46,138 nucleotides of DNA from a filamentous cyanobacterium CCP2. GTDB taxonomy: Bacteria > Cyanobacteriota > Cyanobacteriia > Elainellales > Elainellaceae. Numbering within the stretch: the first letter of the stretch is position 1; each line of letters begins with the position of its first letter. The notes under the pieces are model-generated. The model had not been told where the DNA came from, made no database searches, and was given only the letters and a program-made list of their open reading frames with translations. The position numbers and the translations under genes were made by a program. Location: the NCBI GenBank assembly GCA_003003615.1, contig PVWD01000015.1:1-46138 (forward strand), read 5' to 3'. Shown piece by piece: positions 12,889 to 46,035 of this stretch.

Positions 12889-12967
12889 CAGTTCAGTAAA
12901 TTGCCCATACACTAAACACTTTGCGGGATAGGCTCTTTAAAACCTATCCTGCCTCTTTATTATTTTT

Positions 12968-13030
12968 CTCCCGACTCCCCATTCCCCATTCCCGACTCCC
13001 GACTCCCGACTCCCTATTCCTGACTCCCCC
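12968..13030. repeat. STRR-type heptanucleotide tandem repeat (C-rich strand)
   Basis: Degenerate head-to-tail heptamers of the CCCGACT / CCCCATT / CCCTATT type. The same family, in either orientation, recurs at 15010-15073, 36696-36719, 38414-38455 and 45969-46035. The tract immediately abuts the MFS start codon. Read in frame it adds 37 spurious-looking residues (Pro/Ser/Thr/Arg/Leu) to the ORF. Confidence 0.85.
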
Positions 13031-13031
13031 A

Positions 13032-14312
13032 ATGACACCTCTCCAATCCCTAAAAAACTGGCTTCCCAACCTCGATCGCCGCATTTGGATCTTGATGGCA
13101 GGTCGCTTGCTCTCGCAAATTGGCAACGGCTTTGTGCTATTTTATGCCCCGATCTTTTTTGTGAATCAGGTTGGGCTTTCTGCGGCAGCAGTTGGCTTTG
13201 GCATTGGTAGCCAATCGATTTCGGGTGTTTTAGGGCGAATTGTCGGTGGTTCAATGGCAGATTCGCCGCAATGGGGACGACGCAAGACCTTACTATTCTC
13301 AGCGGCCATTTCTGCCCTCGCAGATGTTTTCTTGTCCTTCAGCAACAATTTCTCAATTTTTCTGATTGGCAATCTGTGCATGGGGTTAGGCATTGGACTG
13401 TACTGGCCTGCCACTGAAGCCGTCGTTGCAGATCTGTCCAAACTCCATCAACGCAATGAGGCCTTTGCCCTTACCCGGTTAGCAGATACCGTAGGCATGG
13501 GAGCTGGCGTAATTTGGGGAGGCTGGCTCATTGCTGTCACTGGGGCTTATCGTGCGCTTTTTGTCATTGATGGCATTTCCTTCTTGGTGTTTTTTGGAGT
13601 TATTTGGCTGGCGATCGATGAAACTCTTGAAACCGTTGAAATTCTGGATTCAGAGCAGACACATCACCAAATGTTGAAAGGTTGGAAAACGGCACTGAGC
13701 GATCGTCCCCTGCTGATTTACTCAGTTGTCAATATTTTATTCACTACCTATCTTGCCTTCATCAACAGTGCATTGCCCCTTTACTTCAGCAATCACGTCC
13801 CCGTTCAAGCCAACGGTGAGGGGTTCTCATCTACCGTACTCAGTGTCCTTTTCTCCTGGTACATCATTCTCGCGGCCCTGTGCCAGCTACCTGTCGCTCG
13901 GTTTCTTAATCGGTTCAGGTATCCTCAAGCCCTAATTTTGTCTGCCGTGCTGTGGGCAGGTGGGTTTGCTCTCATTTGGCTCACAGGAACCGTTGCTAGG
14001 GGGCATCTGGCATGGGCAGCCCTCGGACTGGCAGTGATGGCTTTGGCAACGGTTGCCTATACCCCTGCGGCATCGGCTTTAGTGGCAGGGTTAGCTCCAG
14101 ATGCAATGCGGGGCGTTTATCTATCAATTAATTCGCTGTGCTGGGCAGGTGGATATTTCATTGGCCCGATTATCGGCGGTTGGGCGATGGATCAAGCCCC
14201 TCAAATTGCCAACGGCTTTTGGTTGGTCGCTGCTTTAAGCGTGATTAGCGCAATTCTCATCCTGCGTTACTTAGACCGACGCTTGCAGAAAACCAGACGA
14301 TTGATTCACTGA
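13032..14312 (+). CDS. MFS transporter
   Basis: 426 residues from ATG 13032. The frame extends 37 codons further upstream, but those codons are the STRR repeat tract, so I prefer the first Met after it (MTPLQSLKNWLP). About 12 hydrophobic segments are visible. Between TM2 and TM3 is the MFS motif-A-like GGSMADSPQWGRRKTLLFSA; TM4-5 contains GLGIGLYWPATEAVVADLS, and a charged loop splits the two halves at about residue 205. It is a single-polypeptide secondary transporter in the inner membrane, of the drug/sugar-exporter type. The substrate cannot be assigned. msrA follows 51 bp downstream on the same strand. Confidence 0.88.
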   Translation: MTPLQSLKNWLPNLDRRIWILMAGRLLSQIGNGFVLFYAPIFFVNQVGLSAAAVGFGIGSQSISGVLGRIVGGSMADSPQWGRRKTLLFSAAISALADVFLSFSNNFSIFLIGNLCMGLGIGLYWPATEAVVADLSKLHQRNEAFALTRLADTVGMGAGVIWGGWLIAVTGAYRALFVIDGISFLVFFGVIWLAIDETLETVEILDSEQTHHQMLKGWKTALSDRPLLIYSVVNILFTTYLAFINSALPLYFSNHVPVQANGEGFSSTVLSVLFSWYIILAALCQLPVARFLNRFRYPQALILSAVLWAGGFALIWLTGTVARGHLAWAALGLAVMALATVAYTPAASALVAGLAPDAMRGVYLSINSLCWAGGYFIGPIIGGWAMDQAPQIANGFWLVAALSVISAILILRYLDRRLQKTRRLIH

Positions 14313-15005: not shown

Positions 15006-15009
15006 GTTT

Positions 15010-15073
15010 GGGGAGTAGGGAGTAGGGAGTAGGGAGTGGGGAGTAGGGAGTGGGGAGTAGGGAGTGGGGAGTG
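15010..15073. repeat. STRR-type heptanucleotide tandem repeat (G-rich strand)
   Basis: Consecutive GGGAGTA / GGGAGTG heptamers, the reverse-complement relative of the tract before the MFS gene. It starts immediately after the msrA stop codon. No ORF depends on it. Confidence 0.9.
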
Positions 15074-16585: not shown

Positions 16586-16660
16586 AAATTATAATTCCCA
16601 TTGTAGGTTATTTCTCTAATCGCTAAGCAGAGAGAGGGGTTAGCTCGAAATTCAATAGGT

Positions 16661-16764
16661 GCATCCCACTTTTGCATTTCCATGACAAATCTCTCACTGG
16701 CAGGCAAGATACCTGCGCTACGGAAATCGCTCCATTTGCATAAACATTTGCATCAATGGGATGC
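16661..16764. repeat. MITE-like element with GCATCCCA/TGGGATGC ends and the GCAGGC hairpin core
   Basis: Ends GCATCCCA (16661-16668) and TGGGATGC (16757-16764) are perfect inverted repeats, with TTGCA/TGCAA pairing further in. The centre is CTGGCAGGCAAGATACCTGC followed by GCTACGGAAATC. The central part is nearly identical to the segment inside the chlH-like gene (36661-36687) and, inverted, to 41059-41090. It fills the gap between the Uma2 gene and the HpsE-like genes. Confidence 0.6.
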
Positions 16765-16772
16765 TCTCAAGC

Positions 16773-25638: not shown

Positions 25639-26056
25639 TTACAAGTTGCGTTCTAGCCAGGTCGTCAACTCCTCTGATTGCGTAAAATCCAGCGATGCTT
25701 CGCCCAAAGCTTCCAGTTGGTCAACGGAGAGCGATCGAATGCAGGACTCTACCTCCTGATCCAAGTTGCCAAATCGATGTTTCAGAAGGCGTAATACAAA
25801 CGCGATCTCCCGCTGTAGCCCTTGCTGTAGCCCTTGCTGTAGCCCTTGCTGTAACCCTTGCTGTAACCCTTGCTCCAGAATGTCTTGATAAATGACGGAT
25901 TCTTTCACAATCTCCTCCCGCAGGATTTGCTGAATTACTGCTTTTTCCAATACTAATCCTGCTAAAACCGCCATGTCCGATCGGTTCTTCCAATAACCAC
26001 TGAGCAAAGGCTTGACTGTAGCTTTCGGCTAGAAACCGGCAAACGTTGTCATACAT
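25639..26056 (-). pseudogene. Rpn-type (PD-(D/E)XK transposase-like) gene, internally deleted and frameshifted
   Basis: The first 26 codons from 26056 (MYDNVCRFLAESYSQAFAQW then LLEEPI) are the normal N-terminus of cyanobacterial Rpn/DUF4351-like proteins. The C-terminal 115 codons (AVLAGLVLEKAVIQQILREE, SVIYQDILEQG, five QGLQ repeats, then HRFGNLDQEVESCIRSLSVD and LGEASLDFTQSEELTTWLE) are the normal C-terminus but in another frame. The central nuclease region, about 150-200 residues, is absent. The junction lies around GAACCGATCGGACATGG, a CGATCG octamer site. The result cannot give a working nuclease; the downstream frame could still start internally. Confidence 0.75.
25813..25872. repeat. 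Five tandem 12-bp units inside the Rpn-type pseudogene
   Basis: CTGTAGCCCTTG three times, then CTGTAACCCTTG twice. On the minus strand they encode QGLQ repeats in the coiled linker typical of this family, whose members often have variable numbers of EGxx/QGxx repeats. Confidence 0.9.
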
Positions 26057-35941: not shown

Positions 35942-38900
35942 ATGCCACGAGTTGTTTTAATTGCTGGATTTGAATCTTTCAATGCAGATCTTTACCGGCA
36001 GGCGGCTAAGCTTGCTGAGGAACAGTGTGCAAACCTGGAGATTCAGGTCTTCAGCGATCGGGATTTGGCATCTGAGCCGAAGGCAGTGGAAGCGGCTCTG
36101 CAAAACGCCCAGGTATTCTTTGGCAGCCTGCTCTTTGATTATGATCAGGTGCTATGGCTGCGAGAACGAGTCCAGCAGATTCCGATTCGTTTGGTGTTTG
36201 AGTCGGCATTAGAGCTAATGAGCCTGACTCAACTGGGCAAGTTTGCGATCGGCGATAAGCCCAAGGGAATGCCGAAACCTGTGCAGTTCATTCTCAGCAA
36301 ATTTGGTGGTTCTCAGCGTGAAGAAGACAAACTGGCAGGCTACCTCAGCTTCCTCAAAGTTGGGCCAAAACTGCTCAAATACATTCCCGTCGGCAAAGTC
36401 CAAGACCTCCGCAACTGGCTAATTATCTACGGCTACTGGAATGCAGGCGGCTCAGATAATGTTGCTGCGCTCTTCTGGTTCCTTGCCAAAACGTACTTAG
36501 GGCTTCAGGTGAATGAGATTCCTGAGCCGATCGAAACTCCCAACATGGGGTTGCTCCATCCGGATTACAAAGGCTATTTTGCCTCTCCAAGGCAGTATAT
36601 GGAGTGGTATTTGGAGCGAGAGATTGGAACCCAAAACGCACTCCTCCTTCCCCAACCCGCAGGCAAGATGCCTGCGCTACGGAAATCATCCCCTGTCCCA
36701 TTCCACTCCCCACTCCCCACGATCGCCATTTTGCTTTACCGGAAGCACGTCATTACCAAACAGCCCTACATCCTGCAATTGATTCGCCAATTTGAGCAGG
36801 CAGGGTTGATTCCGCTGCCAATTTTTATCAATGGGGTGGAAGGGCATGTGGCGGTGCGAGATTGGCTGACGACTGCCCATGAGCAAGCCCAGCGACAACA
36901 GGGAACGATCGAAACACCTTCCCTCTCGGCAGATGCGGTGCAAGTGGATGCGATCGTCTCTACGATTGGGTTTCCCTTGGTGGGTGGCCCAGCCGGTTCG
37001 ATGGAAGCTGGACGGCAGGTAGAGGTGGCAAAACGGATTCTGAGTGCCAAAAATGTGCCTTACTTTGTGGCAGCTCCCTTATTGATTCAAGATATTCATT
37101 CCTGGACGCGCCAGGGCATTGGGGGGCTGCAAAGTGTGGTGCTGTATGCCTTGCCAGAGTTGGATGGGGCGATCGATACGGTGCCGCTAGGCGGACTGGT
37201 GGGAGACAGAATTTACTTGATCCCCGAACGGGTGCAGCGATTGATTGGTCGAGTGAAAAGCTGGGTTGCTTTACGCCAAACTCCCCCTGCTGAGCGCAAA
37301 CTCGCCATTATTCTCTACGGTTTCCCGCCTGGCTATGGTGCAACCGGAACGGCGGCTCTGCTGAATGTGCCGAAATCTCTTGTCAAACTGTTGCAGGCTT
37401 TAAAGGTAGAGGGCTACACGATCGGCGATTTTCCAGAAGATGGAGAAGATTTAATTCGGCAGGTGCGCGAAGCCGATGAAGCGTATGTGCGGCAGATTCC
37501 AACAGAAACGAGTCTGGAGAAGGCAGCCGTTACTACGGTCACGGCAAAATCCCTGGAACGTTGGCTGGGGTATCTGTTGACAACTCGCATTGAAAACCAA
37601 TGGAGATCCTTAACGGAAACTGGTATTCGTACCTTGCCTGCCGATCGCCCGGAGGAGTCTCGCTATTTATTAGGCGGGGTACAGTTTGGCAATATCTGGA
37701 TCGGGGTACAGCCGCCTCTTGGTCTGGCGGGCGATCCGATGCGGCTCATGTTTGAGCGAGATTTGACCCCCCATCCTCAGTACGCTGCTTTCTATAAATG
37801 GCTGCAAAACGAGTTTCGGGCAAATGCGATCGTTCACTTTGGGATGCATGGCACAGTCGAGTGGCTGCCGGGTTCTCCCTTGGGCAACACAGGCTATTCC
37901 TGGTCAGATATTTTGCTCGGTGATATTCCTAATCTTTATCTCTATGCCGCGAATAATCCCTCTGAATCCATCCTGGCGAAGCGGCGAGGGTATGGCACTC
38001 TGATTTCCTACAATGTCCCTCCGTATGGCAGAGCGGGGCTTTACAAGGAGCTAGTGGCACTGCGGGATTTGATTTCAGAATATCGGGAAGATCCTGAGAA
38101 AAACTACGCCCTCAAGGAAGCGATTTGCAAGAAAATTCTGGATGCTGGGCTGGAAGCAGATTGTCCCTTCCGGGAAGCCCGCAGGTTGGGCATTGAATTC
38201 ACGCCAGAAAATATTCGACTCTTCAGCCAACACGCCTTCAACGATTACCTCGTCACCCTGTACGAATACCTGCAAGTTTTGGAAAACCGCCTTTTTTCCT
38301 CTGGGCTGCACGTTCTGGGTGAACCGCCGACCTCCGAAGAGCTGCACCGCTACCTCAACGCCTACTTTGGAGAAGATTTTTCCCCCAGTTGGCTGGATAC
38401 CCTCTCCCATGCCACTCCTGACTCCCGGCTCCCGACTCCCGACTCCCCCCTCCCCCTCGATCAGGCTCAACAGATTTGTACTTTGCTGAACCAAACCACC
38501 GACGAACTCACCAACCTTTTGCGCGGACTAAACGGTGAGTATATTCCCCCGGCTCCGGGTGGGGATCTGTTGCGGGACGGCATTGGAGTTTTACCGACAG
38601 GTCGGAATATCCATGCCCTTGACCCCTATCGGATGCCCTCTCCGGCTGCTTATGAGCGGGGACGAGAAATTGCTAGAAAAATCATCGCGCAGCATTTACA
38701 GGAACAGGGCAGCTATCCAGAAACGATCGCCGTGATGCTGTGGGGGTTGGATGCCATTAAGACGAAAGGTGAATCGTTGGGGATTTTGCTGGAACTCGTT
38801 GGTGCTGAACCGATCAAAGAAGGCACTGGACGAATTGTTCGCTATGGCTTAAAACCGCTTTCAGAACTTGATCATCCCCGCATTGATGTGTTAGGCAACT

Positions 38901-39772
38901 TATCAGGGATTTTCCGCGATAGCTTTGTCAACATTATTGAACTGCTGGATGATTTGTTTCAACGGGCAGCGACAGCAGATGAGCCAGAAGCCCAAAACTT
39001 TATCCGCAAACATGCGCTAGAACTTCAAGCACAAGGGATTGCAAATTCCTCAGCCCGGCTGTTTTCCAATCCTGCCGGAGATTTTGGTTCCCTGGTGAAC
39101 GATCGCGTGACGGATTCTAACTGGGAGTCGGGGGATGAACTGGGCGACACGTGGCAGGGCAGAAACACCTTTAGCTACGGCAGACAAGATAAGGGACAAG
39201 CTCGCCCAGAAGTTTTAAACACGCTGCTGAAAAGCACCGATCGGATTGTGCAGCAAATTGATTCGGTGGAGTATGGCTTAACCGATATTCAGGAATATTA
39301 TGCCAACACGGGAGGTTTAAAAAAAGCGGCAGAAATGCAGCGCGGCAAGAAAGTGACTGCCAATTTTGTTGAAAGTTTTTCCAATGACACGACCCCCCGC
39401 AAACTCGAAGATTTATTACGAATGGAGTACCGTACCAAACTGCTAAACCCGAAATGGGCAGATGCAATGGCAGAACAAGGCTCAGGTGGTGCGTATGAAA
39501 TCTCGCAGCGGATGACGGCTTTGATGGGTTGGGCAGGCACGGCAGACTTTAAGGAAAACTGGGTTTACGATCAGGCGGCAGACACCTATGCCCTGGATGC
39601 AGAGATGGCAGAGAAACTGCGTCAGGCAAATCCCGAAGCGTTTCGTAATATTGTCGGCAGAATGCTGGAGGCCCACGGTCGCGGATTTTGGAGTCCTGAT
39701 CAAGAAAAGTTAGAAAAACTGCGATCGCTCTATGAACAAACGGACGAAGAGCTAGAAGGGGTAACGGTTTAA
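35942..39772 (+). CDS. chlH: Magnesium chelatase subunit H-type protein (ChlH/BchH/CobN superfamily), with two repeat-derived inserts
   Basis: 1276 residues. It is the large tetrapyrrole-binding subunit that, with ChlI/ChlD ATPases, inserts Mg into protoporphyrin IX. The conserved core is present: IAILLYRKHVITKQPYI, LPIFINGVEGHVAVRDWL, QVDAIVSTIGFPLVGGPAGS, HFGMHGTVEWLPGSPLGNTG, ILLGDIPNLYLYAANNPSES and GAYEISQRMTALMGWAGTAD. The N-terminus (MPRVVLIAGFESFNADLYRQ) is of the second, BchH-like type many cyanobacteria carry in addition to the main ChlH, so it may be a paralogue; CobN is less likely. Two segments look alien: residues about 240-260 (hairpin repeat plus heptamers) and about 825-840 (STRR). 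Both keep the frame. It is monocistronic. Confidence 0.85.
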   Translation: MPRVVLIAGFESFNADLYRQAAKLAEEQCANLEIQVFSDRDLASEPKAVEAALQNAQVFFGSLLFDYDQVLWLRERVQQIPIRLVFESALELMSLTQLGKFAIGDKPKGMPKPVQFILSKFGGSQREEDKLAGYLSFLKVGPKLLKYIPVGKVQDLRNWLIIYGYWNAGGSDNVAALFWFLAKTYLGLQVNEIPEPIETPNMGLLHPDYKGYFASPRQYMEWYLEREIGTQNALLLPQPAGKMPALRKSSPVPFHSPLPTIAILLYRKHVITKQPYILQLIRQFEQAGLIPLPIFINGVEGHVAVRDWLTTAHEQAQRQQGTIETPSLSADAVQVDAIVSTIGFPLVGGPAGSMEAGRQVEVAKRILSAKNVPYFVAAPLLIQDIHSWTRQGIGGLQSVVLYALPELDGAIDTVPLGGLVGDRIYLIPERVQRLIGRVKSWVALRQTPPAERKLAIILYGFPPGYGATGTAALLNVPKSLVKLLQALKVEGYTIGDFPEDGEDLIRQVREADEAYVRQIPTETSLEKAAVTTVTAKSLERWLGYLLTTRIENQWRSLTETGIRTLPADRPEESRYLLGGVQFGNIWIGVQPPLGLAGDPMRLMFERDLTPHPQYAAFYKWLQNEFRANAIVHFGMHGTVEWLPGSPLGNTGYSWSDILLGDIPNLYLYAANNPSESILAKRRGYGTLISYNVPPYGRAGLYKELVALRDLISEYREDPEKNYALKEAICKKILDAGLEADCPFREARRLGIEFTPENIRLFSQHAFNDYLVTLYEYLQVLENRLFSSGLHVLGEPPTSEELHRYLNAYFGEDFSPSWLDTLSHATPDSRLPTPDSPLPLDQAQQICTLLNQTTDELTNLLRGLNGEYIPPAPGGDLLRDGIGVLPTGRNIHALDPYRMPSPAAYERGREIARKIIAQHLQEQGSYPETIAVMLWGLDAIKTKGESLGILLELVGAEPIKEGTGRIVRYGLKPLSELDHPRIDVLGNLSGIFRDSFVNIIELLDDLFQRAATADEPEAQNFIRKHALELQAQGIANSSARLFSNPAGDFGSLVNDRVTDSNWESGDELGDTWQGRNTFSYGRQDKGQARPEVLNTLLKSTDRIVQQIDSVEYGLTDIQEYYANTGGLKKAAEMQRGKKVTANFVESFSNDTTPRKLEDLLRMEYRTKLLNPKWADAMAEQGSGGAYEISQRMTALMGWAGTADFKENWVYDQAADTYALDAEMAEKLRQANPEAFRNIVGRMLEAHGRGFWSPDQEKLEKLRSLYEQTDEELEGVTV
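36658..36719. repeat. In-frame hairpin repeat plus heptamer tract inside the chlH-like gene
   Basis: CGCAGGCA-AGA-TGCCTGCG (36658-36676) is a perfect 8-bp stem, followed by GCTACGGAAATC as in the 16.7-kb element, then a short heptamer tract (CCATTCCACTCCCCACTCCC, 36699 on). It codes for about 21 residues in the chlH-like protein. Confidence 0.85.
38414..38455. repeat. In-frame STRR heptamer tract inside the chlH-like gene
   Basis: Heptamers ACTCCTG, ACTCCCG, GCTCCCG, ACTCCCG, ACTCCCC. The tract encodes TPDSRLPTPDSPLP at residues about 825-840, a Pro/Ser/Asp stretch foreign to the surrounding helical region. Confidence 0.85.
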
Positions 39773-41020: not shown

Positions 41021-41141
41021 AGTCCATTTATGCAAGTTAAGAAAATAATCAGATAATTCGTAGCGCAAGCATCTTACCTGCCAGTGAGACGCTGCCCGAT
41101 CGCAATGACCAAATTTAATTTTTAACTTTCATAAATGGACT
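41021..41141. repeat. MITE-like element with 12-bp perfect ends and inverted GCAGGC core
   Basis: AGTCCATTTATG (41021-41032) and CATAAATGGACT (41130-41141) are perfect inverted repeats, and the similarity continues inward (AAGTTAAGAAAATAAT against TTTAATTTTTAACTT). The inner arms match those of the 4128-4256 element. The centre (CGTAGCGCAAGCATCTTACC, TGCCAGTGAG) is the inverse of the core at 16693-16722. It is non-coding and fills most of the gap before the propeller gene. Confidence 0.7.
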
Positions 41142-45968: not shown

Positions 45969-46035
45969 GAGGAGTGGGGAGTAGGGAATAGGGAGTCGGG
46001 AGTAGGGAATAGAGAGTCGGGAGTGAGGAGTGAGG
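45969..46035. repeat. STRR-type heptanucleotide repeat upstream of the LivH-type gene
   Basis: GGGAGTA, GGGAATA, GGGAGTC and GAGTGAG heptamers in tandem, the same family as at 12968, 15010 and inside the chlH-like gene. A second short tandem (GGGAACA, about 46064-46080) follows. Confidence 0.88.

Follow-up and report, generated by a model that had tools for sequence, protein, structure and literature searches.

Small dispersed repeats of cyanobacteria are said to have been described by Elhai et al. in 2008 (cited in PMC3116915), and the segment analysed here is, by description, of the same general kind as these and the STRR heptamers: small multicopy elements and C-rich heptamer arrays. The GTAG REPs, as set out in the main text of Di Nocera et al. 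2013 (PMC3733652), are short palindromes with GTAG at one end and high copy number; the families GTAG-12, -15 and -16 are known from cyanobacteria, REPs lying in frame in ORFs are known as well, and in recB of two Xanthomonas species roughly the same position is occupied by different REPs. The same text describes the Rickettsia palindromic elements (RPEs), palindromes found in frame within genes for functional proteins, where they are tolerated. In-frame REPs and RPEs are hence already known.

The repeat core analysed here shares with the GTAG REPs the palindrome, the GTAG end, the high copy number and the in-frame intragenic position, and no case involving chlH or a chelatase is reported in the passages of PMC3733652 on which this comparison draws. 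Unlike the cases given there, a single loop of ChlH2 is filled phylum-wide by several unrelated families, with a paralogue that is never hit as control. With the RPEs the comparison concerns the mode, namely a tolerated in-frame palindrome: RPEs hit many different genes, whereas the present repeat, over the 95 copies sampled, lies in the interior of a single convincing gene. No report of chlH repeats was found in the open-access literature, and, within that literature, a phylum-wide recurrent landing site for several repeat families, accompanied by an invariant paralogue in the same genomes, appears to be new.

A repeat core in frame within chlH2

The window, by which we mean the whole 46,138-nt stretch of DNA that was analysed, exhibits the following features:

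35942..39772, plus strand: chlH2, BchH-type magnesium chelatase H-subunit paralogue, 1276 aa (TIGR02025, PF02514, PF11965)
36634..36720, plus strand: whole repeat-derived insert, ~24 residues beyond the shortest orthologous loops in the orthologue alignment, boundaries inferred by length comparison
36659..36682, plus strand: REP core GCAGGCAAGATGCCTGCGCTACGG, exact, residues 240-247 (AGKMPALR), 242 genome copies at ≤3 mismatches
36658..36676, no strand assigned: hairpin CGCAGGCA-AGA-TGCCTGCG, 8-bp stem and 3-nt loop
36677..36680, minus strand: GTAG tag (CTAC on the plus strand)
36703..36720, plus strand: STRR-type heptamers (CCACTCC)n, in frame (TRF period 7, 2.6 copies, 100% match)
38414..38454, plus strand: second heptamer insert PDSRLPTPDSPLP at site S3, residues ~825-838, in frame (TRF period 7, 4.9 copies)
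16700..16723, plus strand: intergenic core copy, 1 mismatch, within a ~100-bp element at about 16660-16766 with ends GCATCCCA/TGGGATGC
41058..41081, minus strand: degenerate core copy, 3 mismatches

The protein encoded by the ORF 35942-39772 matched PF02514 and PF11965 and scored 1560 bits against TIGR02025 (BchH) in a profile search, the curated cut-off being 829. A canonical ChlH1 of 1331 aa with 35-40% identity to the window protein is encoded elsewhere in the source genome (G000:C420), and an additional, more distant H/CobN-like match lies on C349. Given this separate canonical ChlH, the window gene is, judged from sequence, the second H paralogue of BchH type that bears the name ChlH2 in PMC10156173; the term chlH-like used in the initial annotation therefore holds for the H subunit but not for canonical ChlH. 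The account of the ChlH2/BchH2 isoform in PMC10156173 is, in the parts that deal with it, given without mention of loop hypervariability or repeat content.

The core lies in phase with the ORF, which reads open through all 1276 aa with no frame break, as had been claimed from the sequence at the outset together with the likeness to the 16.7-kb intergenic repeat and the STRR heptamers behind the core, both of which are borne out by the coordinates above. The 24-nt core is open in 5 of the 6 frames, and a fold of -13.7 kcal/mol is predicted for 36655-36690. Upstream of the core, 36640-36657 is C-rich and heptamer-like too, whilst tandem degenerate 7-nt units with period 7, which characterise STRRs, are present at both 36703-36720 and 38414-38454; residues 815-838 around the latter form the most length-variable loop of the ChlH2 family. 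An insert of about 21 residues had been proposed: the insert itself stands, but its net size is ~24 residues (37 aa compared with 10-13 aa), at about 36634-36720. A search of Rfam with the repeat returned no family match, and an RNA family was rejected on this basis.

In terms of anatomy, the GTAG REPs are palindromes of 20-40 bp with stems of 6-9 bp in most families, and the core measures 24 nt with a stem of 8 bp; the unpaired GTAG (or degenerate GTRG/GTGG) at one end is found on the minus strand as CCGTAG-CGCAGGCA..., directly adjoining the stem as the definition in PMC3733652 has it. The CTAC positions are ≥97% conserved in 92 aligned copies, the selection pattern (≤3 mismatches) itself having included CTAC. 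REPs of this kind are also numerous and mainly extragenic, which is matched by the 242 copies and by the location of nearly all of the 95 sampled outside convincing gene interiors. Judged from these sequence traits, the core fits the description of a GTAG-tagged REP element given in PMC3733652.

Copies and larger elements in the source genome

Across the whole source genome (6.95 Mb, 528 contigs), the 21-mer GGCAAGATGCCTGCGCTACGG gave 144 + 98 matches at ≤3 mismatches, whilst the same pattern read backwards gave 0 + 0: the copy number of the core is thus far beyond chance. Among the 95 distinct copies sampled, only the one in chlH2 was judged to sit deep within a long, recognisable gene; the remainder are intergenic, occupy short open frames or are placed at the ends of ORFs.

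Alignment of 92 copies revealed that the 24-nt core is common to at least three larger elements. The first class (~100 bp, ends GGGTGYATCCCA/TGGGATGCTCCC, 33 copies in the sampled loci) includes the 16.7-kb element of the window; its flanks share strings averaging 7.1 nt, compared with 3.4 nt for controls, and this is suggestive of target duplication. The second class has the ends ATGGAGGTTAA/TTAACTTCCAT and 8 copies, and the third is a doublet (7 copies) in which a second REP, TTGTGGGATGGGCATCTTGCCCGTCC, with 230 copies in the source genome, and the window core face each other, both tags pointing outwards. The copy in chlH2 consists of core and heptamers only. The core-bearing elements (16660-16766 and loci L001-L203 of the source genome, G000) form what looks like a modular MITE-like set, and apparent flank duplications of 7-9 nt accompany the ~100-bp element with inverted ends.

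Three Y1/RAYT-type genes are present in the source genome, two of which are followed by the second REP (TTGTGGGGTGGGCATCTTGCCCGCCC or close kin). The hairpin core of this REP is the same as that of the window core and its flanks are different, so that the two are related, not identical; together they form 7 inverted doublets with the tags outside. By sequence, the tie between a Y1/RAYT transposase and the window core would therefore be an indirect one. At L065 and L067 (G000:C366 and C445), Y1/RAYT-type genes ending YPFLWQTSHLFP precede a REP with the same GGCATCTTGCC core and ~230 copies.

The ChlH2 loop across cyanobacteria

In 104 ChlH2 orthologues, 98 of them non-redundant, we compared the loop that leads from the conserved YLEWY helix to the ILLYRKH strand. 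It spans 10-78 residues with a median of 16.5 (37 aa in the window protein), and the shortest loops of 10-13 aa, taken from other genera, represent the uninserted state; loops of this length also occur in close relatives of repeat-bearing species. Taking a perfect stem of ≥9 bp or a strong tandem repeat as threshold, 35 of the 98 loops contain a strong hairpin or tandem repeat vs 0.5% of 1960 length-matched control windows from the same genes. The remaining 63 loops fall below both thresholds, and some of the differences among loops come from ordinary indels or slippage. The peptide AGKMPALR was found in no orthologue lacking the repeat.

The repeats belong to several families. Nostocales and one pleurocapsalean carry GTAGAGACG..CGTCTCTAC palindromes, and a Phormidium has an inverted pair, GTAGGACAGGCATCTTGCCTGTC..GACAGGCAAGATGCCTGTCCTAC; GTACAGACG palindromes, a CCCCTCTCC hairpin, heptamer arrays and longer tandems are found as well. 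Five loop-inserted families, including the window core, were confirmed as multicopy in their own host genomes. The GTAGAGAC palindromes are multicopy in 12/12 host genomes tested, with 6-481 sites per genome, each palindromic site being listed on both strands; 41 copies of the AGGCAAGATGCCTGTCCTAC-type repeat were found in the genome of L088, 14 matches to GGGCGTTTCG..CCCCTAC in that of L147 and 44 of the CCTCTCC hairpin in that of L110. For the GGCAAGATGCC type, a search of six other genomes gave many copies in those of L088 and L073, one each in those of L079 and L084 and none of the exact form in those of L096 and L070, so that the type is widespread but degenerate. The GTACAGAC palindromes, low-copy in their hosts with 2 and 6 sites, were excluded from the confirmed families.

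Mapped on the ChlH2 tree (FastTree, loops left out), repeat presence/absence requires at least 22 changes and family class at least 33, these being parsimony minima that do not distinguish gain from loss. By these sequence comparisons, the window insert belongs to a pattern that recurs and is not an isolated event in the main enzyme. The early claim that ChlH proteins have no such insert holds for ChlH1 (see below) but fails for ChlH2, whose hypervariable loop has repeatedly received other repeats. The loop of L059 (G040), LTTKTRRHEGETK, derives from a repeat of the CACGAAGRCACG type, and the loops of L112, L141 and L145 (Acaryochloris group) share a RLPFLW(K/Q)A peptide, possibly an older fixed insert.

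Three ChlH2 linkers and the ChlH1 control

The homologous loop of ChlH1 is exactly 17 residues long in 38/38 genomes, many of which are also in the ChlH2 set, and none of these 38 carries a repeat there. In ChlH2, the repeats concentrate at three length-variable linkers (numbered by window residues): repeat features occupy residues 224-258 in 35/98 cases, 513-531 in 15/97 and 813-840 in 6/93, so that 43/98 orthologues carry a repeat-like insert in at least one linker and 13 in two or more. The window protein has inserts at the first and third. Hairpins of ≥10 bp occur at 9.3 per 100 kb in ChlH2 ORFs vs 1.4 in 135 neighbouring ORFs. In four proteins (L074, L080, L083 and L131), the GTAGAGAC palindrome family is present in both the first (S1) and second (S2, 513-531) linkers, in different frames.

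Probable origin and tolerance of the linker repeats

Very probably, a GTAG-type REP core and STRR heptamers came in frame into an interdomain linker of ChlH2 that is unconstrained in length, where they are predicted to be translated and are tolerated; the same outcome had been proposed initially, and it agrees with the 10-13 aa orthologous loops, the low model confidence and the purifying selection described below. Small REP/MITE elements and slippage-prone heptamers, abundant in cyanobacterial genomes, would arrive via RAYT- or IS-type transposition and replication slippage; copies in most coding sequence would break the protein and be lost by selection, whilst those in a linker may survive provided that they carry no stop and change the net length by a multiple of three. 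ChlH1 would hold its loop at fixed length, a constraint that ChlH2 appears to have lost: with little constraint on linker length or sequence, frame-keeping copies could persist and the linker could act as a neutral landing pad, refilled repeatedly by different repeats. Both the mobilisation route of each copy and the neutrality of the filling are what we infer.

That many element families from many lineages occupy one linker could also reflect a target-site hotspot, in which some sequence or structural feature of this chlH2 region attracts the elements and insertion bias lies behind the recurrence. We regard this as unlikely: GTAG palindromes, CCTCTCC hairpins, heptamer arrays and longer tandems differ in mechanism, making a shared target improbable, two further linkers of different sequence are also filled, in some cases with the GTAGAGAC palindrome (at S2 in the four proteins named above), and the homologous ChlH1 site is never hit. 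Comparison nevertheless separates tolerance from target preference only in part. A related proposal, to which we likewise give a small chance, is that the ChlH2 linkers serve as a repeat-accepting module, either targeted by preference or kept up actively, in which repeat turnover retunes ChlH2 relative to ChlH1; were it true, retuning could proceed by stability, partner binding or mRNA structure, and mobile mini-elements would supply adaptive variation to the linkers of a core pigment enzyme.

An AlphaFold2 model of residues 1-653, calculated from a 46-sequence alignment, reached a mean pLDDT of 69 (moderate confidence only) and matched ChlH (4zhj) and CobN overall. Locally it exhibits a helix at 216-235, pLDDT <50 at 235-253 and a strand from 260, with the insert sitting between the helix and the strand 260-266. 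A Rossmann-like domain begins at about residue 256, many of its structural matches starting at residues 255-259, and hence the insert is predicted to lie in an interdomain linker. A loop that adds function (partner docking, regulation of ChlH2 vs ChlH1, or an mRNA hairpin affecting translation) and is positively selected could account for the high linker occupancy across orthologues and for hairpins that are still foldable, but is quite improbable, as the inserted peptides are without evident common sequence, length or frame, close relatives of repeat-bearing species manage with 10-13 aa, no confident structure is modelled for the loop and no Rfam family was matched.

Decay of chlH2 as a redundant pseudogene in the making, accepting anything anywhere, would be in keeping with the presence of ChlH1 in the same genome and with split or stop-containing matches in a few genomes. 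Most orthologues are, however, intact at about 1220-1320 aa, and the likewise intact window gene exhibits ~70-83% identity to them; dN was 0.13 and dS 2.5 against the nearest orthologue (dS is saturated against the others), and the sequence of the gene body points to strong purifying selection. With dN/dS far below 1 and the repeats mainly confined to three linkers instead of spread along the gene, we rejected the pseudogene reading as very improbable. The chlH2 matches that are split or carry an internal stop or frameshift (G042:C3, G030:C187, G007:C128) may represent real loss or assembly error. An assembly or annotation artefact, conceivable for a 528-contig draft, has a negligible chance, as in-frame repeats occur at the same site in many independent assemblies, including the nearly complete Calothrix parasitica NIES-267 and Scytonema sp. 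NIES-4073.

Insertion into a tolerant linker, if correct, makes the H subunits a natural experiment on the conditions in which mobile mini-repeats can turn into protein: with two paralogues exposed to the same repeats in the same cells, one loop never changes length and the other is overwritten repeatedly, so that tolerance or targeting becomes directly testable. The ChlH2 linkers would also be permissive sites at which to tag or engineer the H subunit, and they warn that hypervariable linkers of cyanobacterial proteins may be repeat fossils and not functional motifs.

Further repeats in the window

Additional STRR heptamer arrays lie at 12968-13028, 15009-15072 and 45971-46035 of the window, the first of which overlaps the 5' end of ORF 12921-14312, and a 12-nt tandem repeat, GCTGTAGCCCTT, is found at 25812-25874 (5.2 copies, 98% match).
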